From the NCBI GenBank assembly GCA_903813345.2, contig CAIIXF020000010.1, positions 6,997,169-7,061,168 of the forward strand: a stretch of DNA of 64,000 bases, written 5' to 3'. Origin of the DNA: Owenia fusiformis (lineage: Eukaryota > Annelida > Polychaeta > Sabellida > Oweniidae). Numbering within the stretch: the stretch's first letter is position 1; the number at the start of each line of letters is the position of its first letter. The notes under the pieces are model-generated. The model saw only the letters and a list, made by a program, of their open reading frames with translations, was not told where the DNA came from and did not search any database. The position numbers and the translations under genes were made by a program. Below, one piece after another: positions 12,401 through 51,230 of this stretch.

Positions 12401-12740
12401 TTTCAAAGGGTTTGTCTAGTTAAAATATAATAATTTCCTGCAACGTAGAAAGCGGGCAATAAATCCTTCATCTTTAATGATGATTATACTATAAAATAAC
12501 TGCCACTTTTCCTGAATTTTCCTTAGTATCAGAGAAAACCACTCACACAAACATGAAATTCTTCAATCTATTTATGTCACACAATAAAGCTTCTAATGGT
12601 ATTTTCTAAAGTTTTAATTTTGCTGATATGATATATAACTTGATTCCAAAGGGTAGGATGAACAAGAGGCAAAAATGTTTCTAGTACTGTTTAATCTCTC
12701 TTGTTTTTAAATTTTGGGTACATGAAATTCACTTCCTTTA

Positions 12741-13247
12741 TATCCATGATACATTACCAAACAGTTCCTATATCCATGATACATTACCAAACAGTTCCTA
12801 TATCCATGATACATTACCAAACAGTTCCTATATCCATGAAACATTACCAAACAGTTCCTATATCCATGATACATTACCAAACACTTCCTATATCCATGAT
12901 ACATTACCAAACAGTTCCTATATCCATGATACATTACCAAACAGTTCCTATATCCATGATACATTACCAAACACTTCCTATATCCATGATACATTACCAA
13001 ACAGTTCCTATATCCATGATACATTACCAAACACTTCCTATATCCATGATACATTACCAAACACTTCCTATATCCATGATACATTACCAAACAGTTCCTA
13101 TATCCATGATACATTACCAAACACTTCCTATATCCATGATACATTACCAAACACTTCCTATATCCATGATACATTACCAAACACTTCCTATATCCATGAT
13201 ACATTACCAAACAGTTCCTATATCCACGATACATTACCAAACAGTTC
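12741..13247. repeat. 30-bp minisatellite, 17 units
   Basis: Seventeen head-to-tail 30-bp units (TATCCATGATACATTACCAA followed by ACAGTTCCTA). They are nearly identical except for one G/C position (CAGTTCC or CACTTCC), an A in unit 4 and a C in unit 17. Because 30 is a multiple of three and no unit contains a stop in the relevant frames, open frames of 195 aa (+) and 218 aa (-) arise. These are repeat artefacts: there is no start context, no non-repeat coding flank and no splice support. Confidence 0.97.
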
Positions 13248-13934
13248 AGAAGTTCCCTCTTGGGTTCTTGCTTTATATTTGGATGTAACAATGCTTTTAT
13301 ATACTTCCATGGGTTTTTTCTCTTGAAAGCCCATGATACCTCCATCACAATGTTACATTTCATTATAATTAAATTGTTTTTTATTTAGGTATAATCAAAC
13401 TTTTAAATACATCTATGACAAAGTTCCATATTGAACTGCATTTCATATAAATAATTGTTGAATAGATTTACAGAGTGGCCCATGTGTTAGAGACACAGAC
13501 ATGATTATATTTTGAAGATGGTCTAAATAGCTTAAACATAAAGGTATACTCTGTTTTGATACAGCATGTAAACAGAATGATACACAGAATCAGCGATGCG
13601 TTGAGAATGAGCGATGAGAATTAAACACATTTATTGGTAAACAAGAAATCAGGGGGACGACTTCATTAAATATACAGTTTCTTATAAAAATACTATAAAA
13701 CAGATTAATGGCCCCATACATCATCATAAGTAAAACCATGCATGAAAGACAGCTATATTTAGTACAATTTGTAAGCCGAACAGTTTTGCTTACTCGATTT
13801 TAAATTGTAATCTATTCAAAGATGGATTACAATTTAAAGTATTTTGCTGATTAAAGTATCTGAAATCATGACGCAGGCCTGAAATAGCTTTGTTTATTCC
13901 AAAGTGAAGAAGTTATATGAGCAAACGACTCTTC

Positions 13935-15320: not shown

Positions 15321-15485
15321 CTCATCAGACTCAAATACATGGCAGACAATCTTGGCTTGTTTTTTACGTCGTAAAGAATCGTCACTCGGACTATTCAACA
15401 TGCGCCTCTTTGCCATTATAACCACAATGTCCCCGATATCAGCGATGTAAGAGATAGACCGCAACGAATGGTCCATCATGATTTC
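15321..15485 (-). CDS. APBA1: APBA PTB-domain exon 6 (core PTB; last exon in window)
   Basis: Internal exon of 165 nt (55 codons, phase 0 at both ends). It begins [20 protein letters not shown] and continues VVIMAKRRM, then a Ser/Asp/Lys loop, then [26 protein letters not shown] and CHVFES-(D/E) are diagnostic of the Mint/X11 PTB domain. The variable loop between KRRM and AKIVCHVF is several residues shorter than in vertebrate Mint1. The acceptor is GTTTCCAG|GAAATC and the donor GATGAG|GTAAGT. The expected next residues (AQ-IAQSIGQAF in relatives) are not found in the remaining 15.3 kb, so the next exon lies outside the window. Confidence 0.97.
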
Positions 15486-15828: not shown

Positions 15829-15915
15829 CTGTAAGTCTGTATTAAGCACCATTATTTTCTCAGTTGAAACGAACAAGTCTACTTCAGTACTTGGCTGACT
15901 CTCTCCCTCAGGCGC
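15829..15915 (-). CDS. APBA1: APBA PTB-domain exon 5
   Basis: Internal exon of 87 nt (29 codons, phase 0 at both ends), reading APEGESQPSTEVDLFVSTEK then IMVLNTDLQ. The acceptor is GAATACAG|GCGCCT and the donor TTACAG|GTATGT. EGESQP, TEVDLF and S-T-x-x-I-x-V-L are near-invariant in Mint/X11 PTB domains (second and third strands). The match needs no gaps relative to the family forms lacking the Lys-rich insert. It lies 343 bp from exon 6, the only short intron in the visible gene. Confidence 0.97.
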
Positions 15916-19402: not shown

Positions 19403-19554
19403 CTTGATTCTGCCCACAGCCTCTTGGGCCTGCATCATACGCATCCCTTTAGATGGCGCTGAGTCTGAGATCAGTTGGGTTGAGCCAAGATATTTAGCAC
19501 GGAACAGTACGCCTTCTATCAGCACTGAGGGATCATCAGGATCATTGATTTGAA
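19403..19554 (-). CDS. APBA1: APBA PTB-domain exon 4 (start of PTB)
   Basis: Internal exon of 152 nt: 2 bases plus 50 codons. The peptide reads QINDPDDPSVLIEGVLFRAK, then YLGSTQLISD and QAQEAVGRIK. YLGSTQL, M-R-M-M-Q-A-Q-E-A-V and the terminal RIK are hallmark Mint/X11 PTB residues (first strand and first helix); vertebrate Mints have nearly the same string with VSRIK. The donor is ATCAAG|GTGAGA. The acceptor ACATTTCAG|TTCAAA is unusual: it is the gene-proximal unit of a tandem array in which nearly every unit repeats an ACATTTYAG-like site. The next constitutive coding exon begins APEGESQP, which matches the continuation in family members lacking the short insert. Confidence 0.96.
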
Positions 19555-20240
19555 CTGAAATGTAGGAAAAATACTTGATTTTGAACGAGACTGAAATGTT
19601 GGAAAATATTTGACTTTGGACTGGACGGAGATGTCAGAAAACGTTTGATTTTGGACTGGATTGAAATGTTTGAAAACATCTGACTTTGGACTGGACTAAA
19701 ATGTTGGAAAATATTTGAATTTGGACTAGACTGAAATGTTGGAAAATATTTGACTTTGGACATTAGTAAAATATTGGAAAATATTCAATTATGTGACTTT
19801 GGACTGGACTAAAATGTTGAAAAATATTTGACTTTGGACCGGACTAAAATGTTGGAAAACATTTGACTTTGGACTGGACGGAGATGTCAGAAAACGTTTG
19901 ATGTTTGATGACTTTGGACTGGACTAAAATGTTGGAAAATATTTGACTTTGGACCGGACTAAAATGTTGGAAAACATTTGACTTTGGACATTACTAAAAT
20001 ATTGGAAAATATTCAATTATTTGACTTTGGACTGGACAGAAATGTTGGAAAATATTTAACTTTGAACTGAACAGAAATGTTGGAAAATATTTGACTTTGG
20101 ACAGGACTGAAATATTGAAAAACATTTGACTTTGGCCTGGACAGAAATGTTAGAAAATATTTGTCTTTAGACTTGACAGAAATGTTAGAAAACATTTGAC
20201 TTTGGACTGAACTGAAATGTTGGAAAGTATTGGACTTTAG
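19555..20240. repeat. 35-36-bp tandem array abutting the exon 4 acceptor, about 19 units
   Basis: The plus-strand unit contains CTGAAATGTTGGAAAATATT and TGACTTTGGACTGGA. On the transcribed (minus) strand most units contain TTTTCCAACATTTCAG or TTTTCCAACATTTTAG, a usable-looking 3' splice site. The unit next to exon 4 (ACTGAAATGTAGGAAAAATA on plus) supplies the real acceptor. Units vary: some have CTAAAATGTTGG, one pair has CGGAGATGTCAG, and an AATTCAATTA-type insertion recurs. No coding function is assigned to the short minus-strand frames here. Confidence 0.92.
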
Positions 20241-21351
20241 GAAACACTATTCAGTTGAAATGAAGGCAGTTAGTAATGCAAAGGTAGAAGTCTTATTTTG
20301 AACAATTGAAGAATGAATAATAAGAATTAAGGATTTGAAAAGATAAGTTACAAGAACTTTTGATTCGTGCTGACATATCAGGAATACTTCATCTGGTGTG
20401 TACACTACTATTTTTATTTGTCATTTACATAAACACATTAATCATTGAATAAAAATATCCATCACCGAAGTAGATATAAACTTAATTAAAGACAACAATA
20501 AAAATATTTTTATCACCCAAAAAGACTGAAAGGTTGGAAAGGATACAAATATGAAAATATCTATCTGGAAAGCAATATTTATATGTGCATGTACAACATA
20601 AAAAATGAGAAAATAAATCTTTTTATGAATATCACTCACCAGTAAATTTTCATCCGAAGCAAAAAAGAAAGAAATCCAACATTTGGTTAATACATGTAAT
20701 AAAAAAAACATACCATAATTTTACAATGCATGTAATAGTCATCATATCATGGACTCATATTTAGAGGCATAGTTGATTGCATATTTTCAAGCCTTTTATA
20801 CAAGTATATTAGATCAGTACATATACATTCATTAAACTCATCCTTGAAACATAATAATTACAAAAAATCTTGAAAATAATATGCCTACTTTTCAATGTAT
20901 GAGATAATCCCAAAATCTGCTTCACTATATAATCCAAGATCACATTGATCCACCATGAGATGAAACAAGAATAATATCAGCAGAAAGTCAACTGAATAAG
21001 ACAAACAGCGTTACTCTATGATGTCATAAAACACCTGAATCCAATCTTAACTATTCATCCTCTAAATCCAAATATCCTGTGCTCCGTATAATATTTACAA
21101 TGTGTGCTTCATCACTTTTTATTTTCTCTTCAGTGTATATCATTTAGTCTCTTCTTTGCTGTAGAAATGGGTGATAAAGAACTCAATTATCCAAATAATC
21201 TTTGTTTAGGTAGAACGTGTTATATCGACTCTATAGTAATCTCTTAATGCGACGCTGACCTAACCATTGGGATTAAAATGCTATTAGCAAATAGAAGAAA
21301 ATGCCATGTCTTTCCTGTTTCTATATCTATAGCAAAACCTTCAAAGCACGC

Positions 21352-21910
21352 ACAGTACCCCATGACGACTCAGTAGTACATGTACTGAAACATTCCTTGC
21401 TTCATGAAGAATCCACAGTACATGTACTGGGACATTCCTTGCTTCATGAAGAATCCACAGTACATGTACTGAAACATTCCTTGCTTCATGAAGAATCCAC
21501 AGTACATGTACTGGGACATTCCTTGCTTCATGAAGAATCCACAGTACATGTACTATGACATTCCTTGCTTCATGAAGAATCCAAAGTACATGTACTGAAA
21601 CATTCCTTGCTTAATGAAGAATCCACAGTACATGTACTGAAACATTCCTTGCTTCATGTAGAATCCACAGTTCATGTACTGGGACATTCCTTGCTTCATG
21701 AAGAATCCACAGTACATGTACTGAAACATTCCTTGCTTCATGAAGAATCCACAGTATATGTACTGAAACATTCCTTGCTTAATGAAGAATCCACAGTACA
21801 TGTACTGAAACATTCCTTGCTTCATGAAGAATCCACAGTATATGTACTGAAACATTCCTTGCTTCATGAAGAATCCACAGTTCATGTACTGGGACATTCC
21901 TTGCTTCTAC
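21352..21910. repeat. 42-bp minisatellite, about 13 units
   Basis: The unit is CATTCCTTGCTTCATGAAGA followed by ATCCACAGTACATGTACTGA and AA (or CTGGGA). Units alternate irregularly between ACTGAAACATT and ACTGGGACATT. Each carries the 12-base palindrome AGTACATGTACT and a TTCATGAA palindrome. The period is divisible by three, which explains the 85-117-aa frames on both strands; these are not genes. Confidence 0.95.
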
Positions 21911-22422
21911 AAAGGTAACAGCTACAATATGTCAAAAGGCCAAACACTGATTTGGTTCAGAAGGACAAAAAGACAGTCCGTCAGTGTATAAACAACCATT
22001 GAATACGGAGTCTCATTATATGCCATCCGAGCAGAAAATCACAATATAATCCTGACAGGAGTGAATTTACTATGCTTACATTTCTCTGATTGCCTTCTTA
22101 GCAATGATTGCGAACATCCACTGATTACATCCAAGAAAAAGGCACACATCATAAATCACAAGCTGACAATGAAAATGTCAAAGCAGATCTATGTGGAGAG
22201 ATCATTAAGGGATGGTAGACAATGGTCAACAGTTGTGAAAAAAGAAGTTCATTTCATTATGATTCTTCCACCCCCTTCCTTCCTCAAATAATGAATTTTG
22301 AAATTGTTGATCTGCCTATGATACACTAAAATTTTCGAAAATAAACATTCTTCACTGACAAAATTATCATCATCAACCTTGTCTAGACAAAATTTACCTC
22401 CTTATTCTTCTACAATTGTTGA

Positions 22423-27952: not shown

Positions 27953-27983
27953 CTTCTTTTGCTCTGGTACGGCGCTTCTCAGC
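27953..27983 (-). CDS. APBA1: APBA 31-nt microexon 3 (basic linker)
   Basis: A 31-nt exon encoding AEKRRTRAKE plus the first base of the next codon. The acceptor is GTTTTTTTCAG|GCTGAG, with a strong pyrimidine tract, and the donor is AGAAG|GTAAAT. It enters in phase 0 and leaves in phase 1, completing a Val codon with the TT that opens the PTB exon at 19403-19554. Skipping it would shift the frame, so it must be constitutive in any transcript using the flanking exons. The peptide is highly basic (six K/R in ten) and sits just before the PTB fold, where it could act as a charged hinge; that role is inference. Confidence 0.85.
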
Positions 27984-31590: not shown

Positions 31591-31736
31591 TAATGCCTTG
31601 GTCACATTTGCTCAGATTTTCACTAAGGCGCCTGGCCGATTGAGTATTTTGTTCAAAATCGAATACAATATTGAACAAAACACTCAATCGGCCAGGCGCC
31701 AGCCGATGGATCGGAGCATATGTGACCAAGGCATTA
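31591..31736. mobile_element. 146-bp near-palindromic MITE
   Basis: The ends TAATGCCTTGGTCACATTTG and CATATGTGACCAAGGCATTA are inverted. A second inverted block, GGCGCCTGGCCGATTGAGTA / CACTCAATCGGCCAGGCGCC, follows, then TTTTGTTCAA / TTGAACAAAA, leaving a loop of about 20 bases. The whole element can fold into one imperfect hairpin with arms of roughly 60 nt. No coding capacity. It lies just downstream of exon 2 in the pre-mRNA. Confidence 0.9.
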
Positions 31737-31779: not shown

Positions 31780-31889
31780 CTGAGCACTCCTGTTAACTGG
31801 AGGTGTAGACAATTCTGGGATGTCAACCTTGGCCTCTTTGACATAGTTCCTGTCCAGTAGTTGGTCCGTCTCCTCATCTGTGTCATACT
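31780..31889 (-). CDS. APBA1: APBA shared N-terminal exon 2 (acidic to basic linker)
   Basis: Internal exon of 110 nt: 2 bases plus 36 codons, ending in phase 0. The acceptor is TATTTGCAG|AGTATG and the donor GCTCAG|GTAGAT. It begins EYDTDEETDQLL after joining either first exon and ends STPPVNRSAQ. The start is strongly acidic; the rest is Pro/Ser-rich linker before the PTB domain. No domain is recognised, but codon use is ordinary, no stops occur in the used frame, and both junction phases match the neighbouring exons. It is joined upstream to exon 1a or 1b and downstream to the 31-nt microexon. A role as a flexible partner-binding tail is inference. Confidence 0.85.
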
Positions 31890-38027: not shown

Positions 38028-38142
38028 CAAAAGGTTTGAAGCAAAACTGATTCTACCTTTAAATCTTATTAGAACATTCAAGGGCAACATCTGATGAATA
38101 TAAAACACTAAGAACATAAATACTAATCTACCTAAGACCTAC

Positions 38143-38197
38143 CTATATGACAGTACGGACAGTTATCATAATCATAATCCACCATAGCTGTCGTCAT
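38143..38197 (-). CDS. APBA1: APBA alternative first coding exon 1a (proximal)
   Basis: First coding exon of 55 nt: 18 codons plus one base. It encodes M-T-T-A-M-V-D-Y-D-Y-D-N-C-P-Y-C-H-I and donates at ATAG|GTAGGT. An in-frame TAA lies ten codons upstream with no ATG between, so the first Met is the likely start (A at -3; a second in-frame Met is at codon 5). A weak acceptor-like TTTCAAG directly precedes the ATG region, so a 5' UTR exon further upstream (for example in the GC-richer patch near 49 kb) is possible but unproven. The exon resembles exon 1b in residue pattern, length and donor, which points to exon duplication. Expression of either exon needs transcript data. Confidence 0.8.
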
Positions 38198-38914
38198 CCT
38201 TCTCTTGAAATATGAATCACTTTAATTATAATATATCCACTTAAGACTTCATAAAATGCTACCCCATTTAGATCATAGTATATCCTTAATTTGCTTCACC
38301 ACATACTATAGCTGTACTTTAGCTGATCTAATCATTTTTATAACTGATATAATTTCCTCCGGTCTTTCATTTGATATCTTATCATGTTTATTACCAATAT
38401 GTTTTTCTCTTGTTATCCGTGTGAGATAATCCATACTATTCTGCAATTTATAAACACTGTAAAATGCAATGTTTCAATCTGATGTAAAACGTTCCAAACT
38501 GACGTTATACATGATCATTTTAATTATATTATCCAAGGTTCCCCTATTTAATTATTTTCCATAGTAAGCATATCACCTGCATTCAAAGTCTATGTTATAT
38601 CTAAACTTAATGTATGGTTAACGTGTAAAGTCTGGAAATTCAATAATCTGTAATAATGTCACTTTCAATATGGTACAATGGTTTATTTTAATATCCAAGA
38701 CAATAAATGGTTGCATCCGCTTTAATTGTATTACTATACATAATAGAATGATGAGGTTAATCTGTCATTGGGGATTAATTCTATTTTCGGTAAATATTTT
38801 TAATATCATATTTTTCATTATTTGCAGTAACATTTTAAAATCAATTCAGTTAAATATGTAGTGCTATCTTCAGATTTTACAGTCCTTATCACTAAGAGAA
38901 TCACACACATGCCA

Positions 38915-39235
38915 TTCATGTAAATGGTGACAAGATTTTACTTTCATCCACTATTGACTTCTTATTGTGTGCCATTCATATAGATTCAATAATACACCCA
39001 CTGCAGCGGGCATCTGATCAGTAAGTATCTATTCTGAGGATATGCATTTTTACAGCCTTTGTTTTCTTTCAACAATAATGTAAATGGTGACACGACTTCA
39101 CTTTAATCTAACGCTGACTTCTTAATATGTGTCACCCGAATGATTTCGAAAATATACTCAAAGGGCATCGTATCTATTCTAAGGATATGCATTTTATAGC
39201 TTTGTTATCTTTCTAACAATAGACGGCTAATAATA
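38915..39235. repeat. diverged direct duplication, about 150-bp unit x 2
   Basis: AATGGTGACAAGATTTTACTT, CTATTCTGAGGATATGCATT and CTTTCAACAAT in the first half recur as AATGGTGACACGACTTCACT, CTATTCTAAGGATATGCATT and CTTTCTAACAAT in the second, in the same order. Confidence 0.75.
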
Positions 39236-39635
39236 CCTCTGACCCGGGGTTTCCAATCTTTAAGTTATCTGGATAAACCAATCAATTTCTCACTAATTTG
39301 TTAGGATCTTAGAAGTTTTTATGACCCATTTAGGCTCCTACGAACAACTCGTATATAATTTACTACTTCTGGAAGTGGCTTAATCCTGACTTAAGCAACT
39401 GTTTATGTGGCATCCATCTTTATATTACACATGAGATAATTTTAGTCTTCAACTAATAACATTCACTGGCAATAATCCCTCATCAATATGATACAGTTGA
39501 TTGAATTCAATACTATCTTGCATATTGCTTCATTTATATAGCATTTTTAGTTTCATTTTTTAGAGATGATAGCATTGGTGTAATACAGTGATGTTATTTC
39601 TGTTGTTAAAATTGTTTTTTAGGTTGTATTTTTCA

Positions 39636-40440
39636 TGGTGTTTTTTGTTAGGTGCTGTGTTTCTTTGTTATGTTGTTAGTTCGGTACTCTTTCTTGTTAT
39701 GTTGTTTGTTAGATATTTTGTTTCTGTGTTGTGTTGTTTGTTGGATATTGTGTTTCTTTGTTGTTTTGTTTGTTTGATATCTTGTTTCTTTGCTGTGTTG
39801 TTTGTTGGGTATTGTGTTTCTTTGTTGTGTTGGGTAATGTGTTTCTTTGCTGTGTTGTTTGTTGGGTATTGAGTTTGTGTTGTTTGTTGGGTATTTTGTT
39901 TCTTTGCTGTGTTGTTTGTTGGGTATTGTGTTTCTTTGCTGTGTTGTTTGTTAGGTATTGTGTTTCTTTGTTGTGCTGTTTGTTGGGTATTGTGTTTCTT
40001 TGTTGTGTTGTTTTTTGATGTTGTTTCTTTGTTGTGTTGTTTGTTGGATATTGTGTTTCTTTGTTGTGTTGTTTTTTTGTTGTTGTTTCTTTGTTGTGTT
40101 GTTTGTTGGATATTGTGTTTCTTTGTTGTGCTGTTTGTTGGGTTTGTGTTTCTTTGTTGTGTTGTTTTTTGATGTTGTTTCTTTGTTGTGTTGTTTGTTG
40201 GATATTGAGTTTCTTTGTTGTGTCGTTTGTTCAGTGCTGTATTTCTTTGTTGTATTGTTTGTTCAGTATTTTGTTTCTCTGTTTTGTTGTTTGTTCAGTA
40301 TTTTGTTTCTCTGTTTTGTTGTTTGTTGAGTATTGTGTTTCTTTGTTGTGTTGTTTGTTAGGTATTGTGTTTCTTTGTTGTGCTGTTTGTTGGGTATTGT
40401 GTTTCTTTGTTGTGTTGTTTGTTAGGTGTTATGTTCTTCT
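39636..40440. repeat. 32-bp G/T-rich minisatellite, about 25 units
   Basis: The plus strand is almost purely G and T, with units like TTTGTTGTGTTGTTTGTTGG then GTATTGTGTTTC. Stops are rare in all plus frames, giving overlapping Cys/Val/Leu/Phe-rich frames of 87-155 aa. These are compositional artefacts. Sub-variants (a shorter unit with TTTTTTGATG, a later block with CAGTATTTTGTTTCTCTGTT) show local expansion of sub-blocks. Confidence 0.95.
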
Positions 40441-41066
40441 AATTTTTGTTCATCTTACATTGAACCTTTTGTTTTCTCATAATCACTTCAGTGTAATTTA
40501 ACACAGCCTTACTGCACCCAATGCAGTCACTGAACCATATGCATGTTATTTAACCATTAGGTGACATGTCCCAAAAGCATGTATCTCTCAATCTTAGGAT
40601 GGCAAACATTTCTTGCATGGTACTAAGCAATTAATCAGATCAAACAAATAATTCTATTAAGGCTAACAGATTATCTCTTTCTACTTTTACTTTAGGACAA
40701 TATGCACATTTTTTAATTTTCAGTTTTTCCTATTTGCATTTTATTCACAAAATAATGCCTCTATCTAATCTATAAATACAATGATGGTTCTTGTATACTA
40801 TTGTTATTTATATAGAAAACACTTTAAACAATGATTTATTTTTCATCAATTCAAACAGTTTTTTAAATCTGTAATAGAACAAGTCAATCCAAGCATTTCC
40901 AAAATAGATCTTAGCTTGCTGTGTTTGAACATCTATTAAGAACAATATGCTCTATAAAAACACTTGCATATATTGATTCCCTCATGCAAAATTAAATATC
41001 TCATGCAAAATCATTCTCTTATGAAGTAAATATTCACAACAGTTGGTTTCAAGTGAGATAATGTTT

Positions 41067-41338
41067 ATGCATCCTCCAAACCCAGGGCTCCAGACTTTAT
41101 CCACTCTGTTGGGAAAGTGAACAGAGTGGATGATGTCTCAAGCCCTGTATTTGGAGAATGGATGGGAAAGAACAGAGTGGATGATGTCTCAAGCCCTGTA
41201 TTTGGAAAAGGGATGGAAAAGAACAAAGTGGATGATGTCTCAAGCCCTGTATTTGGAGAATGGATGGGAAAGAACAGAGTGGATGATGTCTCAAGCCCTG
41301 TATTTGGAGAATTGGAAGGAAGGAACAAAGTAGATGTT
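41067..41338. repeat. 51-bp tandem repeat, about 4 units, with hairpin at its edge
   Basis: The units are AACAGAGTGGATGATGTCTC, AAGCCCTGTATTTGGAGAAT and GGATGGGAAAG. ATCCACTCTGTT, about 9 bases before the first unit, is the exact complement of AACAGAGTGGAT, so a 12-bp stem borders the array. 51 is divisible by three, hence the spurious frames on both strands. Related to the single copy at 31343. Confidence 0.93.
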
Positions 41339-42142
41339 TGAAATCAGAGAATTTTTCATTTTTGCCAGCTTTTGACATTTTACTACATTCATACAGTACG
41401 TGATGCTCAACTTAGTGAAATTAGGCGTTGACAGAGACCATTTCTACATATTTTGAGATGTTTTTTTTTGCAAATTGGATGAAAATTGTCCAAATTAGAG
41501 CGATTTCAGTGAAAAACTGTGTGACAGATTTTCTCATCACTCTAGGTTTCAAGGTCATTTCTAAGGTAACATTAAATCTCATCACTATGAGTAGTAAATG
41601 AGTAGAAGAGTAATCAGATATCAGATTTCATATTTTCAAAATATTGACTTTCAGTTCTGTCAGTTAATTATTGACATTTTAGTTCTACATTAGCAATTAC
41701 AAATAATCACAAAATACAATATCATGTTAGCACATTTGACCAATATCCGGGCCAATATCTACCTTATTCATTAGCTGGAATAATATATATTACGAATTCA
41801 ATAGAAATTCAATTATAACTATCGATCATACAAATGAGGCATGAATAATATCAAACATGTCACAATGTCACTGAAAAGTTTCAATAAAAAGTGTAACAAT
41901 TACATATGCAGAATACATGTGCCAATTTGAAGCGCTAAATAGATAAAAAATGGTTGCCAAAATTGGTCCTTGGAACTCATGCAAAATTGTTAAATTAAGG
42001 ATGAAATGATTTCATTGGATCAACTGCATTTATTCTATGTTACCAATCTTCAGCATAAGATAAATTGACACGCTACACAATTTCATATCGGTGAACGAAC
42101 TGATGTAATTTTAAACCCTCAAAAAACCACAAAGTAAAACCA

Positions 42143-42300
42143 AACAAGGCATTAACATGCAAAATGACACCACATGCCATTTGTAACAGATGCAAAATGC
42201 CGACAGCTGAAGGCACTGCTAAACACCTCTTAACCACCAAACACCATCCACAAAAAAGTTGAAGACCATAACAAAATGCCACTACTTGTGATAATCACAT
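42143..42300 (+). repeat. dispersed family copy 5
   Basis: AACAAGGCATTAACATGCAA, AATGACACCACATGCCATTT, CCAAACACCATCCACAAAAA and AGTTGAAGACCATAACAAAA match copies 1, 2 and 6; same orientation. Confidence 0.8.
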
Positions 42301-44553
42301 CATAAACTGATTGGGAAAGTTACTTTCAAGTTTGGATACAATTATTCCAACATTTATTTTCTAATTTTTCAATTCATTATTTAATATTGACTCCAAGAAT
42401 TTCTGAATGAATTTACTGAGCTGCCAGATTCTTTAACTAATTAAAAGATCAAAGCAAATTTGGAGACTTGAAGACAGAGAAACGGCGAACACGCAAGTTT
42501 TCAGATAGGAACGTAGTAGACACTTTGGTACCAGTCTGTAGAATTACTCCATTGGGAAATGGAATCCATGAAAAATTAATGATGCCATTTCTTGCATGTA
42601 TTGAAACAGCATCACTTGTAAGAATTTAACACTCTCGTTTTCCAATATGCTACAATAAAAATGTTGTTAATTGAGAAATTCACAGCTTCAGAGTAAATTG
42701 TATTTGAAAAAACACCCCACCACCTTGAAAAAAATGTGAACCATTTCACTAAGTTTACAGTATTGTATATTTTCACAATTATTACCGTTAGGATATCTAG
42801 CATTTCAAAACTGAACTTTCTCCTTCGAAGAATGCATTATATTATTCACAGCAGCTATGCTTTTGACTGACTGGGCATTCAATTGAGATGCTCCTTTGAT
42901 CACATTTCAAACCATTGAAAAAGACCAGCAATCTAGCATCATCCAAAGGTGCGATAATATGAGACAATATAAACTATAACACTACAAGCTTCTTGAGCCT
43001 TGCACCACATACTTCTACATCAACAAGCTCTATATTCTGATTGGTCCAAATGGATCATGTGACCTGTATATGGTATACCCTATATGGTGTGTATCGAAAA
43101 GGTAGGAATTTGGATTTATGATATTGTGCTCAACACCACATTTCCATACGAAGGTAATGAACTGCTCTCACTAATTCTCCCAACGAGCACTTTATGATAG
43201 AATATATGAGAAAATCAGAATATTTTGGCACTTTAAGCATCCACTGCGACAATTATTCAGATGGTATAAATATGTATTACTCTTGCATGTTCTAAAAAAC
43301 AATAGAAGTGACATAGTAGCGATAGCTTGGGACTACTTATATGCAATTTTTGTAATAATCTTGGCAAGTTGGCAAGTCCTTATTATAACTCAATGTACAT
43401 AGCTTGCATATAACTATTCTTCCAATGAAAAATCCCCAGTTCACCTTGTGTACATGTATATACTTTTACTTTTAAAAATGCATGCAGTATTATATTCTGC
43501 TCTCACACTGGAGATTTCATTAAATCTTTTGAGGACAACCAAAAAACTTAAAACTTAAAAGGTATAGTTTTAACATATGGAAACATTGTGAAAATTCAAC
43601 AAAATAACAGATAATTTTGTTAGAAATAAGCAGAGAAAGCCTGCTTCGAAATGGGAATCACAATATCACTTGCTTCAAGAATAGAATATCCAGTTTTGAA
43701 TATATTGTGTCTAAACAACGCAGATGGAAGAATAACAACATATTTTATGATCCAATCAAGAGATGGCCAGATAAAATGCAGTGAACCATGAAACTTGTGA
43801 AATAATACTGGATATACTGTTATGATTTAATAAAGAAAAGAAATCGATTTATTAAAAAACTTAATTATCTCTCAGGACTTGGAATTGTATTTTTTCTGAT
43901 GACTTCTCTGGTAATATTCTGATAAAATGACAATTTTAAGCATCCTGACACACACCCACATACTTTTTCTTGAACATTCCAACACACGTTGTGTACATTG
44001 TATTACAGAAGCCAGAAAATCCATTAGGATTTTGTCAAGCTTGTAAATAAGCTGCCTTATAAATAAGCTCACTTCTGAGCACTCTTCCCAGTTAATATAC
44101 AGCACTAGGAAAAGAGCTAGACAACCAGGATGAGCTATCTCAGAAAATACAAGGGGCAACAGGCAAAGGCAAAAACAAATAAAACAAACCCCACCGAATC
44201 ATATTACACCACAGAACCTTAAAAAACAACTTTTTATGGGAAACGTTTTTTTTTATCTAACACTAAATACAAAAAAAACAATACTTAGCTTTGTACTCAT
44301 TTAGGGAAAATTTCAGATTTGAAAAAATTAGTGTAAAAGGAACGTGGGGTAGAAAAGGAAAAGTATATATGGACACAATGATCACCTTATCTTAAGTCAC
44401 CTAATTGTTGAATTAATATGATATACATGTATTCTCCTTTTTGTACCACATCCTTATACACTCTTTGTGAATTACCCCCTTGAATGAACATGAGAGCTGG
44501 TATTACAAAATCAAAAAAAAACTAGAAAAACAGCAACTCCACGGAGTAGCAAA

Positions 44554-45831
44554 TCCCACCGAACAAAACATGTTTTGATAAAAAAATTGAGCCAAATACA
44601 TCCACTGGTATTTGAATTATCAAAGATTATGTCTTTATGGTTGCCATTTTGAAATTCAGCAGTCATCTTTAGATTTCTTCTTTAGCAGAGAATGTCCGTC
44701 TAATGGTATCTGGGTTATCAAAGATTACTTTTTTAATGAAAAACGGCAGCCATTTTGAAATTCAGCTATCGCCTTTGAAATTTCTTCTGAAGCAGATCTC
44801 CTTTTTCCCTAAACATCAGCATATAAAATTGGAACCAAATCCATCCACTAGTATTTGATTTATCATTAATTACGTTTTTTTTACGAAAAATGGCGGCCAT
44901 TTTGAAATTCAGTGGTCATCTTGAAAATTTATTTTTGAGCAGATCTTCTTTGTCTCTAGGCATCAGCATATAGAATTTGAACCAAATCCGTCAACTGGTA
45001 TTTGAGTTATCAAAGTTTACGTTCTTTTATGAAAAATGGCGGACATTTTTAGCTACCACCTTGAAAATCTCTTCTCGAGCAGAGCTCCTATGTCCCTAGG
45101 CATCATCATGTAAAATTTGAACCAAATCCATTCAATGGTAATTGAGTTATTAAAGATAATGTTTTTTTATGAAAAATGGCCGCCATTTTGAAATTTAGCT
45201 GCCATCTTGAAAATCCTTTCTCGAGCAGAGCTCCTATGTCCCTAGGCATCAGCATATAAAATTTAAACCAAATCCATTCAATGGTATTTGAGTTATCAAA
45301 GATAATGTTTTTTTACGAAAAATGGCCGCCATTTTGAAATTTAGCTGCCATCTTGAAAATCCTTTCTCGAACAGAGCTCCTATGTCCCTAGGCATCAGCA
45401 TCTAAAATTTGAACCAAATCCATTCAATGGTCTTTGAGTTATCAAAGATTACGTTTTTTTACAAAAAATGGCCGCCATTTTGAAATTTGGTGGCCATCTT
45501 GAAAATGTCTTCTTGAGCAAGGCTCCTTTGTACCAAGGCAACAGCATATAAAATTTGAACCAAATCCATCCACTAATATTTGAGTTATTAAAGATTACAT
45601 TTTTCCGAAAAATGGCCGCCATTTTGAATTAAGTGGCCATATTGAAAATTCCTTCTCGAGCAGAGGTCCTACACTCATAAGGCATAAGCCTATAAAATTT
45701 AAATGAAATCCGTCGACCGGTATTTGAGTTATTGCCCGGACACACGAACGGACGGACGGACGGAAGAATGGATGGACGAACGGACGGACGGACGGCTTCT
45801 CTATATCCCCCTCGAACTTCGTTCGGTGGGA
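44554..45831. mobile_element. composite element with 11-bp TIRs and about 145-bp internal tandem units
   Basis: TCCCACCGAAC (44554-44564) and GTTCGGTGGGA (45821-45831) are perfect inverted ends. Between them are about eight tandem units of 140-146 bp: ATTTGAGTTATCAAAGATTA, CGAAAAATGGCCGCCATTTT, GAAATTTAGCTGCCATCTTG, GAGCAGAGCTCCTATGTCCC, TAGGCATCAGCATATAAAAT and TTGAACCAAATCCATTCAAT. The array ends in a (GGAC)n microsatellite and TATATCCCCCTCGAACTTCG. A shorter diverged copy of the right end is at 58.3 kb. There is no coding capacity; the superfamily is unknown. Confidence 0.82.
45737..45795. repeat. (GGAC)n microsatellite inside the composite element
   Basis: Interrupted GGAC/CGGA repeats with a GGATGGAC variant in the middle. 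It forms the 3' part of the surrounding element. Confidence 0.9.
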
Positions 45832-46269
45832 TAATGAAGTAAATAGTCACCTCGGGCTACAAAGTTAATCTAATTTCTACGGGGTTCAGCAATCCCTGAA
45901 ATAGAAAAGAGCATCCCCATTCTTTAAGTTCCAATCACATGACATTCTTATTCTATTTATTAAATGCCCAGACATAGAAAAAAAGAACTGCGAACTTCGT
46001 GCTTGTTTTATTCCGTCCATGGTACTCTAGTTTTGCAACCAAGGGCATTTCAATTGGGATATTTGTTAGGGGTTAAACCCAATTTTCTCTGTGACAATCA
46101 GTATCAAGAGAAATCCATTAATCCTCTAGGGGTATAATTATGCAATAACTATCAGGCCTCTAGTCTTAGTTAAATGTCACAGACATCATTATTTCATGCT
46201 CTTCTGCAGTATAGAAGTTCTTACCCTGAGTCCATTGCTTAATTCACTATACTCTGAGTAGGACAGATC

Positions 46270-46640
46270 ATTTTATATTAAGGGAGGATGATCTTTGGGG
46301 GAAGACAGGCTCTGATTGGCTCTGGGCTTTCAAATGTTGATTGGTGACTTTGTGAGGAGGCAATATGTTTACATAAGGGGAGGACAATCTTTGAGGGAAG
46401 ACAGGCTCTGATTGGCTCATGGATTCAAATACTGATTAGTGACTTTGTTCATATAAGAGGAGGATGGTCTTTGAGAGAAGACAGGCCCTGATTAGTTCAG
46501 GCATTTCAAATGTTGATTAGTGACTTTGTTTACATAAGAGGAGGAGGATCTTAGAGAGAAGACAAGGTATGATTGGCTAAGGGAGTTCATAGATTGATTG
46601 GTGACTTTGTGAGAGAGCAACAATGTTGCAAAGGGTATAA
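46270..46640. repeat. about 90-bp degenerate tandem array, 4 units
   Basis: Each unit has GGAGGAYNATCTTTGRGRGA, AGACAGGCTCTGATTGGCTC and TGATTGGTGACTTTGT, followed by a TTTACATAAG segment. Unit length varies by indels near GTGAGGAGGCAA. Confidence 0.9.
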
Positions 46641-46643
46641 CAT

Positions 46644-46668
46644 TTAAGTTAAGTTAAGTTAAGTTAAG
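46644..46668. repeat. (TTAAG)n microsatellite
   Basis: About five pentanucleotide repeats of AAGTT directly after the 90-bp array. Confidence 0.9.
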
Positions 46669-47446
46669 AGAATGTCTTCTTAAACATCTCTGATCTCTGA
46701 TGTTATAGAGTGCTTATCACACTTTATTCTAACTTCCTTACAAACAAAAACGTTTTCAGAAATCGGAAAGAGACGAAGCCAGGGACACAAAGACAACAAA
46801 CCATATAAACTAAAATCAACAAAACAGTAGTATGGTGTCAAAAAACTTAATTTCCTATGTTTTCCTGAAAACACGGAATGATAGAAGTATTGATATCATT
46901 TCTTACTAACCAAACTTTCATAAAACACTTCCCAGTGTTGAATCAGTCACAACTCAAGTAGAAAATCTGTGATAAGATCAAAGGGGAAAAAGCATTAGCA
47001 GGAAAATTACTGCCAATTTGTGTAATGCAGATATGATACTGGCAATCGATAAAGAAATATTATTTGGTAAGAAAGTATCAAATCAATATGGCCAAAATAT
47101 TTCTTTCAATAAAGTCCTAAAGTAGAACTACAATTAAGTATACACAAACTATATCCTAGTTTTATTCTATTAAGTTAGTTATGCTACTCATTCTAAGAAA
47201 TAATACAGTATAATTAAAGGGCATGATAAATATTTTACAAAATCGTTCAAAAGAGAAAATGGGAAAATTTTAAGAATCATGCATATGAATCAGCCAAAAT
47301 AGAAAATTATATAAAACAAATTTAAGCAATCAGCTATAAGACACAACATTCAAAGTATCAAGCAAAAATGATGAGAAGAAAATTGCAGAAGATGATGTAA
47401 AGTCAGAACCAGAAATGAAAGCCAGGGAGATGACATTGCAAATGTA

Positions 47447-47555
47447 AATAAAGGTTAAATGAGGGTGCAAGTTAAAGCTAAAGAGGTGTATATGAAAACA
47501 AAGGTTAAATGAGGATGCAAGTTAAAGCTAAAGAAGTGTATATGAAAACAAAGAA
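47447..47555. repeat. tandem duplication, about 55-bp unit x 2
   Basis: AAAGGTTAAATGAGGNTGCA, AGTTAAAGCTAAAGARGTGT and ATATGAAAACAAAG appear twice in a row with two substitutions. Confidence 0.9.
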
Positions 47556-48025
47556 GGCTGCAAATTAAGGTCAAGGAACTCCAAGTAAACCTTATTTTCC
47601 CATCATACAAATTTCATTACTTTTAATAAAGAAAATAATTACGCACAAGATTTTATACACGCAATGATGGAATTGTGAAAAACTGATTCATTACGACTTC
47701 ATATGTAATCAGATTATATTGATTGCTAATGCGCTTGCAGTCTCTGACATTTCTCTTATTTACTATATTTACTCTGTGCTCTCAATATGCTATTATTTCA
47801 TTATAGAGCTATCAATTCTATTCTAACTGAAGAGTCAGTCAGACATAGACCTGTCACTATGGCACTATGGCTATTGACTGCACAACTCAAATGAGTTCGG
47901 TCCCACATATCTCTTTATACACTTGAGAATTTTGTAGTATTGTTGTAATAAAATTATGTGCTTTCTGCAATACTGATTTGTAGGGTTTGTTTCAATCCAC
48001 ATGAATAAATTCAAATTCCACATGA

Positions 48026-48386
48026 TATACATTGAAACTTGTAAAGTGGAACAATTATAGAGGTGGCACTTCTCCACTATAGAGGTGGCACATCTCCACT
48101 ATAGAGGTGGAATATCTCCACTGTAGAGGTGGTACATCTCCACTATAGAGGTGGCATATCTCCACTATAGAGGTCACACATCTCCACTGTAGAGGTGTCA
48201 CATCTCCACTATAGAGGTGGCACATCTCCACTATAGAGGTGGCACATCTCCACTATAAAGGTAGCACGTCCCTATTAGAAGAACACTTTTCAGTATCCCA
48301 AGCCCAATTGACTTATTGTTAAATGAACCTCTATAAGTGGAACACCTCTGAAGTGCAACACTAGTTATAGGTATCAAAGTTTTACC
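48026..48386 (-). mobile_element. 'AGTAAAACC' MITE copy carrying an expanded 22-bp array
   Basis: On the minus strand GTTCCACTTATAGAGGTTCA, ACTGAAAAGTGTTCTTCTAA and, past the array, GTTCCACTTTACAAGTTTCA match in order the small MITE at 50252-50404. That element has only one short CAGAGGTTTCCACTTT segment where this copy has the array at 48056-48271. The ends are eroded (GGTAAAAC on one side, no clear TIR on the other). Confidence 0.7.
48056..48271. repeat. 22-bp minisatellite, about 10 units
   Basis: The plus-strand unit is TATAGAGGTGGCACATCTCC followed by AC. Variants include CACTGTAG, GAATATCTC and GTCACACATC. It sits inside the MITE copy described above. Confidence 0.95.
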
Positions 48387-48409
48387 TTATAATAATCAAA
48401 CAAAACAAT

Positions 48410-48507
48410 CAATCATTGTTTGGATTCACTGTATAATTGTTTGGATTCACTGTATACACTTGTAATTGTTTGGATTCACTGTGAAATTGTTTGGATTCAC
48501 TGTGTAA
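48410..48507. repeat. ATTGTTTGGATTCACTGT repeat, 4 copies
   Basis: Four copies of AATTGTTTGGATTCACTGT with short variable spacers (TAT, TATACACTTGT, GA). Confidence 0.93.
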
Positions 48508-48950
48508 GTGTTGCCTGTTTAATTTTTACAGAGGAATCACTATAAGTTTGTGATTTTAATAGGTACAAAGAAATGCTTTGTGACATCACATTTGTTGCAG
48601 ATTCAGAATGTACAATAAATAGAGAAATCACATTCAATAGACTAGATGCGAATAGAAATAATCTTGATTTATGTCATTAAATATTCAAAATTCAAAAAAA
48701 ATTGTTTATCAACTTTGAAAATTTAATCTTTTTTGAAAATGTGACTTCTAGCTCGGGTTGATTCCTCATAGACCCCATGTTACAAAATCACAAAAAGTGA
48801 AATATCTTTTCTTGTGTTGGACATATAACATTTTCTTTTACTGGACATATTTTAATTTGCATAACTATTAGATACATAAGGGTTATATAAAAATTGAACC
48901 ACTAAAACAGATGTAATTTAAGTTGAAGGGAACTTTCTACTATACCCGCC

Positions 48951-49045
48951 ATGTTATCTGACCCGAACGAGCCACCTGGTGGCGAAACTGGTAACTACCT
49001 ACTCGCATCTGCGTTATTGTAAATCTTCTTGCATGCAAGGGCTGA
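48951..49045. promoter_or_regulatory. GC-richer patch with a CTCF-like palindromic motif
   Basis: In an AT-rich intron this patch contains GCCACCTGGTGGC at 48971-48983. The minus strand reads CCACCAGGTGGCTC, which fits the bilaterian CTCF core consensus at 13 of 14 positions. Downstream on the minus strand comes AACATGGCGGGTATAG. It could be an insulator/enhancer, or a promoter/5' UTR exon feeding exon 1a. No confirmed splice donor or TATA element was seen. Confidence 0.35.
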
Positions 49046-49674
49046 TGTGAACAACCCTCCTCTCTGAATACAATACAGCAACTTTAACAAATAGATTACA
49101 TCATGCATGCCTGCCTCATATTACATAACAACAAAGACAGAAAAATTATATTAACAAAGACATTCAGAGAAAAATTAAGTCATAAAGTCCCAGGGGCACA
49201 TTCAATACAGGCAAAATTATAACGTTTCCAAGGTTATTCTTAAAGTTATCAATCGGAAATTCCACAAATCCAGCTTCATTTAGAGACTTAGGCAGTTATT
49301 GCAAAACCAATAAAGCTGTGCTTTTACTTAATACAGGAGGCTGACAAAATCCCAAGATTATGACTGTCAAACTGTCAAATATCAGACTTCCTGAATGAAT
49401 TTTATGATTAAGTCTTGCGTCAAGCCCCTGATTGCTTCCTCATTCTAATTTTATCACAGAGGAAGGAAACAGAAATTGATAGTGACCCCTAAATTGCCTC
49501 TTAATTAAACACAGGGTAGTAAAATACATTGTATGAGTGACCAGTATGTCAACTCCATGTATGTCAAGTCCCTAGATTGTCCCCTTATTCTCGATAGAAC
49601 AGAGAAAAGAGGGGGGGGGGGTGACCAGAGACTTGATGCATGACTACTTAGTATCACTCTAGTCCTGCATCAAG

Positions 49675-49795
49675 TATGATCCATGCATTATTCACTCCAT
49701 CCAGTAGATCGTGTTTATGTTATTATGGTATGAACCATGTATTACTCGCTACATCCAGTAGATAGTGTATATGTTATCATGGTATGAACCATCAA
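49675..49795. repeat. tandem duplication, about 53-bp x 2
   Basis: CATCCAGTAGATCGTGTTTA, TGTTATTATGGTATGAACCA and TTACTC recur as CATCCAGTAGATAGTGTATA, TGTTATCATGGTATGAACCA. An 11-G run lies just upstream (about 49611). Confidence 0.85.
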
Positions 49796-50251
49796 CAAAT
49801 TAAGTGGGGTCACATTATTAAAACTGATCAACTAGATAAAGAGACAATGACATAAATCATTTAAAAGTGAATTCAAAAAATGGCTATATAAAAAAATGTT
49901 TGTGCAAGAGTGAACATTGAAATCTTTGATCAGTGTTATTTTATCTATCTGTACTATATTGTATTAAACAGGTTGCCAAGTGCTTGATACAACAATAGAC
50001 ATCTATATCAGATTGCATTGTTGAAATGTTACATTATATGCAGTTTCACTATCTTGACATCTATGTATCAGAATTAAAACACTGGAACATTACTATACTG
50101 ATTACTTACTTTTGAAAATATCAAAATACATGAAATTTATCTGTAACATGTCATTACAAAATCTGATCTCATTTGGGAATAATAATTTTGACATTTGTTT
50201 TGCATAACATCTATCATATCATTTCCTCCAATGTTGTCATTTGTACTTGTT

Positions 50252-50404
50252 ACAGTAAAACCTGTGTAGGTAGAACACTTTTGGTACCTCCAGAAAGTGG
50301 AGTGTTCCACTTGCAGAGGTTCATTTATCATTAAGTCGATATTAATAATGGGACTCTGAAAAGTGTTCTTCTTACAGAGGTTTCCACTTTAAAGGTTTTA
50401 CTGT
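50252..50404. mobile_element. 153-bp MITE with 12-bp TIRs (ACAGTAAAACCT)
   Basis: ACAGTAAAACCT (50252-50263) and AGGTTTTACTGT (50393-50404) are perfect inverted repeats. The internal AACACTTTTGGTACC and GAAAAGTGTTCTTCTTACAG also show partial inverted symmetry. TA precedes the left end, but no clear duplicated target remains, so the superfamily (Tc1/mariner-like or other) is undecided. Non-coding. Confidence 0.82.
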
Positions 50405-50887
50405 GATTGATATAAACCAAACGATGGTATATTCAGGGTGACACAAAAAATGACACCTAACCTTACGTTGCATAATGTTACGTTATGTTGCATTTGGCAC
50501 ATTGACATAATGTGAGTAGAGAGCACCTCGTGAAATTTCAGATATGTAGCTCAAGTGGGTCAAATTTGTGGGTGTCATTTTTTGTGAAACCCTGTATGTT
50601 CCATGAATCAAAATGGACGTTAGTCTGAAACAGTTCTCAGGTTTTATGTTTCCTTTGCATCATTTAACTTGATATGTAATGAAAAATATGAGCGACAACA
50701 AAGCAGGATATTAATAAATAGAAATGATTAAATGGGACTACATGAGGATCTACATTATGTAACTCAGTATTACATAATGCATAGTAAACCGATGGGATTG
50801 TATTACATTCCAGTAGATGAAAGCGATTAATATTTCCCATGCCCTCATGTTCTTTTAAAAAGTGTGATGACTTCAAAGGAATACTTG

Positions 50888-51024
50888 GGCATTAACATGC
50901 AAAATGTCACCACCTGCCATTTGTTACAGAGGCCAAACTCCGAACACCAACCACCATCCGTCAAACACCATCCACAAAAAAGTTGGACACGATAACAATT
51001 TGTCACCATGCATTTGTGATGGTA
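50888..51024 (+). repeat. dispersed family copy 6 (near exon 1b)
   Basis: GGGCATTAACATGCAAAATG, TCACCACCTGCCATTTGTTA, CCAACCACCATCC and AAACACCATCCACAAAAAAG, ending in TTTGTGATGGTAAGAT. About 130 bp from the 3' edge of exon 1b. Confidence 0.8.
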
Positions 51025-51154
51025 AGATAAAAATTCTACTAATAAGGGCCCTGGAATCAAATTTGCATAATTGACACATCAAAGTGTCACTGATCTTAAG
51101 AGTGACTCTCTGTTCTTGAGTTGAATGTCGTATAGTATTATTATTAAGACTTAC

Positions 51155-51230
51155 CTATTTGACAGTAAGGACAGCAGTCTGAGTCATATTCAAAGTCCAT
51201 GACAGGTTCCTTCCTCATCACAGAGATCAT
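51155..51230 (-). CDS. APBA1: APBA alternative first coding exon 1b (distal)
   Basis: First coding exon of 76 nt: 25 codons plus one base (phase 1). The peptide starts MISVMRKEPVMDFEYDSD and ends C-C-P-Y-C-Q-I. The start is well supported: a TAG lies in frame two codons upstream (TAG AAA ATG) and an A sits at -3. The donor is ATAG|GTAAGT, an excellent consensus. The last base joins the AG of the exon at 31780-31889 to make a Glu codon. The exon is clearly related to the other first exon at 38143-38197: both encode aromatic/acidic residues, then CPYC-x-I, and their donors share the GTARGTCTTA context. Splicing from here into the proximal first exon would hit a TGA after ten codons, so the two are most simply read as alternatives driven by separate promoters. 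The function of the CPYC segment is unknown. Confidence 0.82.

Follow-up and report, generated by a model that had tools for sequence, protein, structure and literature searches.

How does the Mint/X11 gene of the annelid Owenia fusiformis begin its protein, and how many alternative N-termini does it have to choose from? The question is raised by a 64,000-nucleotide stretch of DNA (contig CAIIXF020000010.1, positions 6,997,169 to 7,061,168), hereafter the window, in whose positions coordinates are given unless they carry the prefix C10. A first-pass annotation had noticed here two short minus-strand exons, 1a and 1b, which encode an acidic-aromatic tail with a CPYC motif, and had read them as a promoter-linked choice between two N-termini. 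We consider it probable that 1a and 1b are duplicated internal alternative first exons of a Mint gene beside which no second Mint was found in this genome, that both copies have been kept by coding selection, and that a long form of the protein starts from an upstream exon with a CASK-interaction domain. What this reading builds on, namely the exons, their frames, the likeness of the copies, the Mint identity of the gene and the CASK domain, is seen in the sequence. The exons at issue are as follows.

38143..38197, minus strand: exon 1a, candidate alternative first coding exon; ATG at 38197, 55 bases, MTTAMVDYDYDNCPYCHI plus 1 base, phase-1 end
38133..38142, minus strand: donor of exon 1a, GTAGGTCTTA, from sequence and splice score
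51155..51230, minus strand: exon 1b, candidate alternative first coding exon; ATG at 51230, 76 bases, MISVMRKEPVMDFEYDSDCCPYCQI plus 1 base, phase-1 end
51145..51154, minus strand: donor of exon 1b, GTAAGTCTTA, from sequence and splice score
31780..31889, minus strand: exon 2, (E)YDTDEETDQLLDRNYVKEAKVDIPELSTPPVNRSAQ, phase 1 to 0, in-frame ATG absent

Direct reading confirmed both minus-strand segments, each with an ATG that follows an in-frame stop (8 codons lie between stop and ATG in 1a, 1 codon in 1b), and translation confirmed an acidic-aromatic stretch and then CPYC-x-I in both copies. Each copy also ends in phase 1 at a GTARGTCTTA donor, as had been described. Local searches covered 244 kb around the gene on both strands and pattern scans the whole 498-Mb genome; among the GT sites of the 244 kb, the donors of 1a and 1b stand at the 99.3rd and 99.8th percentile, i.e. 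within the top 1%, with the lower splice score for 1a (4.7 versus 6.2 for 1b). The acceptor of exon 2 is TATTTGCAG, directly followed by the AG of the exon at 31889. Because this AG completes the split codon, both conceptual joins yield I-E-Y-D, and 1a and 1b each run on in frame as ...I-E-YDTDEETDQLL. The reported N-termini of 18 and 25 residues have the right lengths when counted from the first ATGs. Later in-frame ATGs occur at 38185 in 1a (MVDYDYDN..., near the acidic part) and at 51218 and 51200 in 1b (the latter giving MDFEYDSD..., likewise near the acidic part); in an alignment of the 1.2-kb regions around the exons, 38185 and 51200 are one codon apart. Since a later in-frame ATG adjoins the acidic part in each copy, the first-exon tails could instead be 14 (1a) and 15 (1b) residues long.

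Acceptor sites were scored with a generic matrix drawn from general knowledge. On this score, the acceptors of exon 2 and of the three PTB exons listed below lie at the 91st to 99.8th percentile, and all nine AG dinucleotides in the open stretches of 1a (5) and 1b (4) lie at the 31st to 69th percentile of AG sites. No acceptor-like site was found in the open stretch before either donor. The combination of missing acceptors and strong donors fits first exons, though it would also fit an untranslated exon further upstream. An early stop had been predicted from joining 1a to 1b; with no acceptor-like site in either copy, the point does not arise.

The likeness of the two copies was compared with chance in several ways. 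A 30-base query, made of the last 20 exon bases of 1a and 10 donor/intron bases, gave best matches of 30 (1a itself), 27 (1b), 22 and 19 in the 244 kb, and about 4e-8 matches of at least 27/30 are expected from base composition. When a degenerate pattern derived from both copies was run genome-wide with at most 2 mismatches, it hit three places, which are the two exons (0 mismatches) and one site on C12 (1 mismatch); its reversed control hit one place. Local alignment of the two 1.2-kb regions scored 45, a value reached by none of 500 shuffles (top shuffle 44), and it gave no significant likeness between the regions outside exon and donor. The best-kept part of the alignment is CPYC-x-I, and the single length difference between the copies amounts to 6 bases. 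Over 11 aligned codons, with the unalignable N versus SDC stretch omitted, five of the six codon differences fall at the third position; this bias was reached by 0.96% (0.0096) of 200,000 random draws, and the score for conservative change by 0.78% (0.0078). As the codon differences are mostly at third positions, 1a and 1b look like products of an old duplication that have been preserved for what they encode. Selection on the coding sequence of both copies can be argued with moderate confidence, since the sample consists of six changes.

No convincing third copy of the CPYC exon was found in the 234-244 kb around the gene. A scan for third copies gave scores of 82 and 78, both self-matches, and the 30-base query was preferred. 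A match of 22/30 at 134678 (0.02 expected) was rejected: its aligned GT reaches the 44th percentile, the ATG falls within a dispersed repeat, in or next to which the matched bases also begin, and no acidic-aromatic stretch is present. The site encodes MLVPCQYCNI, which meets a stop if joined to exon 2 and stays open if joined to exon U (see below). The C12 site was likewise set aside, as it is without the acidic-aromatic stretch and a related repeat adjoins it by eye. A transposon origin was also considered and gained no support. In a search that skips very common words, the copies with their surroundings (501 and 601 bases) each matched nothing in the genome but themselves, so that no transposon family is evident. 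No retrocopy carrying the splice was seen either, as a peptide of exon 1b plus exon 2 (1a was not in the query) found those two exons and nothing else.

Downstream of exon 2, the host gene continues with the following features.

27953..27983, minus strand: candidate exon 3, 31 bases, AEKRRTRAKE plus 1 base, phase 0 to 1, from splice score and phase
19403..19554, minus strand: Mint PTB exon, first part, from homology and splice sites
15829..15915, minus strand: Mint PTB exon, second part, from homology and splice sites
15321..15485, minus strand: Mint PTB exon, third part, best match the human Mint2 PTB (3sv1_A, 1.9e-15)
near C10:6978823-6979056, beyond the low end of the window: next PTB exon, from homology
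near C10:6960067-6960749, 36-37 kb past the low end of the window: two PDZ1 exons, from homology

The assignment of the gene to Mint/X11 is borne out by its PTB exons, which belong to the Pfam family PID and whose four PDB matches are all to Mint2, X11 or Mint1 (E 1.9e-15 to 1.9e-11). Candidate exon 3 is the sole phase 0-to-1 reading among four open readings between exon 2 and the PTB, in a non-exhaustive scan whose cut-offs would exclude 3 of this gene's 4 acceptors. With exon 3 in place, conceptual joins keep the 1a and 1b proteins open through all three PTB exons. A 187-residue query gave five genome matches, four in the host gene and a weak one on C5 (E=0.001), and thus no second Mint, a miss in such a search not being proof of absence; genome-wide, nine PTB-family matches were obtained, seven of them outside the window, and the Mint-specific query matched none of those seven. 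By these searches, no Mint besides the host gene turned up in the genome.

On the minus strand at C10 ~6979088-6979234 (window -17934 to -18080), two short segments weakly resemble the beginning of a Mint PTB exon (AQL..QSI.QA; E 0.19 and 5); they adjoin the intact exon and are perhaps degraded copies of it. In the intron before the first PTB exon, short repeats occupy 19560-20250, several with an acceptor-like CATTTCAG, and the real acceptor of that exon may derive from, or compete with, these repeats.

The following exons, upstream of 1b, bear on whether the choice is between two starts or more.

C10:7188705-7191058, window 191537-193890, outside the window, minus strand: 784-codon exon with a CASK-interaction domain at its end
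C10:7103549-7103629, window 106461-106381, minus strand: exon U candidate, phase 1 to 1, VYELEEDDRLLAHQYTRNDGKVYQPGR
C10:7069942-7070340, window 73172-72774, minus strand: 399-base exon candidate, phase 1 to 1, acidic and tyrosine-rich

About 143 kb upstream of 1b, the 784-codon exon is open from MSDPEG to ...HPEPVWVM plus two bases, with a phase-2 end, and the 63 residues at its end match Mint1 in the CASK-interaction domain (6kmh_C, E=7.8e-5; 6lnm_B, E=0.002). It is very probably the long, CASK-binding first coding exon of the host gene, to which it would presumably be joined. Because this exon sits upstream, the best reading of 1a and 1b is as internal starts of short Mint isoforms without the CASK-binding front. 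Given this exon and the two upstream phase-1 candidates, which might splice to exon 2 as well, the choice is probably not limited to two N-termini. What stands of the promoter-linked choice is a Mint gene with duplicated exons that share a phase, join exon 2 and have no acceptor; its restriction to two N-termini probably does not. Transcripts that skip both 1a and 1b are to be expected, and they would alter the meaning of the exons while leaving the exons standing.

An in-phase chain without a stop leads from exon U and the 399-base exon through exon 2 and exon 3 to PTB1. Exon U (VYELEEDDRLLAHQY...) is laid out like exon 2, with the same TGTATTTGCAG acceptor and the same succession of acids, LL and Y. 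The score of their protein likeness was reached by 31 of 5000 shuffles; their DNA likeness is unconvincing, as 9 of 500 shuffles reach the observed 33 and the highest scores 51. Pfam gave no family for exon 2 or for the 399-base (133-residue) exon, and the PDB gave no match for exon U.

We propose that transcription would start at 1a or 1b and proceed through exon 2, candidate exon 3 and the PTB and PDZ exons, giving a short Mint with an acidic, CPYC-bearing tail of 65 (1a) or 72 (1b) residues before the PTB. The long form would begin at the 784-codon CASK-domain exon. The choice of start would thereby set whether the Mint that binds cargo through PTB and PDZ is CASK-coupled (long) or cysteine- and tyrosine-tipped (short). 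For this scheme we infer coding selection, separate promoters, use of the exons in vivo, a splice link from the long exon to this gene and a function of the tip. If start choice does yield CASK-binding and CASK-free Mints, one gene would cover roles that vertebrates divide among paralogues, and the duplicated short tip would be a small peptide open to testing.

The locus shares with Mint/X11/APBA (LIN-10) its PTB exons, PDZ1 exons and CASK-interaction domain, here on one strand at one locus. It differs from that family in its duplicated short CPYC first exons, which encode a tail without a Pfam family. Mint N-termini are described as highly divergent, with a single Mint in most invertebrates sampled and three in vertebrates, where the CASK domain occurs in Mint1 only (PMC11405698). 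A literature search found nothing that links CPYC to Mint1, and a short CPYC first exon was not met in the available portions of the Mint/X11/APBA/lin-10 isoform or promoter literature, including PMC10692275 and PMC7736295 and excluding preprints.

Several points weigh against the reading that we prefer. The best shuffle (44) falls one point below the observed alignment (45), the core homology spans about 30 bases beyond which the alignment is limited to the acidic part, and the third-position result draws on only 6 changes with the N/SDC stretch excluded. The support for exon 3 consists of its splice score and phase. Joined directly to exon U, the 399-base exon, exon 2 or PTB1, the 784-codon exon runs into early stops, and joined to exon 3 it misframes the downstream sequence. 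Of 18 open readings considered as linking exons, 4 would preserve the frame, as would one more from a motif-led scan, and none is convincing by its content; the frame-keeping readings are 190932-190830 and 190932-190800 (to exon 3) and 102434-102391 and 148258-148218 (to phase-1 exons). The argument for a shared transcript is drawn from the CASK domain, the strand and the lack of a second Mint.

Could just one copy work as a first exon, the other being a remnant that has not yet decayed? We think this unlikely. The copies do differ in length, 1a does have the weaker donor, and the flanks are without significant likeness, so that no shared promoter is visible; yet frame, ATG, upstream stop, CPYC-x-I and a top-1% donor have been retained in both, and the changes between them are mainly silent or conservative. 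The existence of phase-1 candidates upstream (exon U and the 399-base exon) would also allow 1a and 1b to be internal exons within longer transcripts, their ATGs being incidental. This is very improbable given the in-frame stops 8 and 1 codons before the ATGs and an acceptor-like AG in neither open stretch. The same candidates could instead form the main Mint transcript, with exon U and the 399-base exon leading into exon 2 and 1a and 1b as minor or spurious starts. That proposal gains from the open, in-phase chain through exon 3 to PTB1 and from the resemblance of exon U to exon 2. It is nonetheless doubtful to our minds, as the resemblance was noticed post hoc and is weak in DNA, no first exon was found for the chain, and the persistence of two CPYC copies would be left unexplained.

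As to what the CPYC tip might do, we lean towards S-acylation or an intermolecular CxxC contact, and the acidic tyrosines might serve as kinase sites. The active site of glutaredoxin shares the letters CPYC. No glutaredoxin domain surrounds it here, since the 1b tail, queried with a wrong junction (GVFA), matched no Pfam family at E values up to 1; this speaks against a redox role. For the 1a tail, no meaningful PDB match was obtained, the seven chains returned having E values of 0.58-1.6. The cysteines lie near the N-terminus in both tails, and their acidic surroundings speak against acylation. The closest well-studied parallel is PSD-95/SAP97, where alternative N-termini likewise offer either a short tip with cysteines or a longer interaction module: alpha forms carry two palmitoylated cysteines, and beta forms carry an L27 module, which is the CASK-binding part of SAP97 (PMC6365469). 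These proteins are unrelated to Mint, however, and the Mint cysteines stand in an acidic context at residues 9-13 or later, versus 3 and 5.

The 65-residue 1a tail holds two cysteines and one histidine and the 72-residue 1b tail three cysteines and no histidine. Because each tail has one CxxC and too few ligands for a four-ligand site of its own, a metal site would need to be shared between molecules. By analogy, the tip may be a metal-bridged docking half-site, in which a single zinc ion is held jointly by a pair of short Mint tails, or by one Mint tail and a receptor tail that carries cysteines; we regard this as a long shot. Precedents are the Rad50 zinc hook, whose CxxC binds metal between two molecules (PMC5093744), and the CD4/CD8-Lck clasp, a receptor-Lck interface mediated by zinc (PMC12198760). 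The Mint tip, known here from sequence alone, is likened to these intermolecular metal sites by its CxxC; unlike them, it shows no coiled-coil apex and has no known partner. If the idea holds, start choice would swap CASK-based for zinc-based assembly of one PTB-PDZ scaffold, and the 1a (CPYCH) and 1b (CCPYCQ) versions would differ in affinity.

Two other accounts of the tip shift the weight away from the cysteines. In one, which is on the unlikely side, the tip works chiefly via its tyrosines (DYDYD, DFEYD, EYD) as kinase sites, like the N-terminus of mammalian Mint1, with CPYC secondary. Src is reported to phosphorylate N-terminal tyrosines of Mint1 and thereby alter APP routing (PMC4982022), but the Mint1 sites differ in sequence (YEEI and neighbours), and it is CPYC-x-I that is best kept between the copies. 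In the other, exon 2 would be a Munc18-binding acidic helix tuned by the first exons. YDTDEETDQLL, compared with human Mint1 YEQEEDIDQIV, is the second best of 41 segments scoring at least 24 in 124 kb and six frames, and its score is reached by 66 of 3000 shuffles, a weak likeness. The Mint1 double mutation D269A/I270A is listed as abolishing Munc18 binding (PMC10820826, Table 1); the key Ile at position 270 is a Thr in exon 2 and the C-terminal half is unmatched, which makes this account highly doubtful. When the 784-codon exon was compared with the Munc18-binding helix, 7 of 200 shuffles reached the score of its best segment. Exon 2 also contains ETDQLL, which fits [DE]xxxL[LI], the acidic dileucine pattern.

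Rfam and tRNA searches gave no matches. Just past exon 2, at ~31625-31710, lies a long palindrome (GGCGCCTGGCCGATTGAGT...) that resembles a small inverted-repeat transposon. Copies of a dispersed repeat at 42148-42203 and 50888-50943 are 88% alike, and the tail of this repeat occurs in at least 6 copies in the 244 kb. Sequence related to it is found beside the C12 and 134678 sites, possibly by chance given its frequency. Tandem arrays occupy the Mint introns at 12707-13384, 21344-21931, 39571-40541, 44568-45732 and 48012-48297, and some of them yield long open frames on both strands that are not gene-like.

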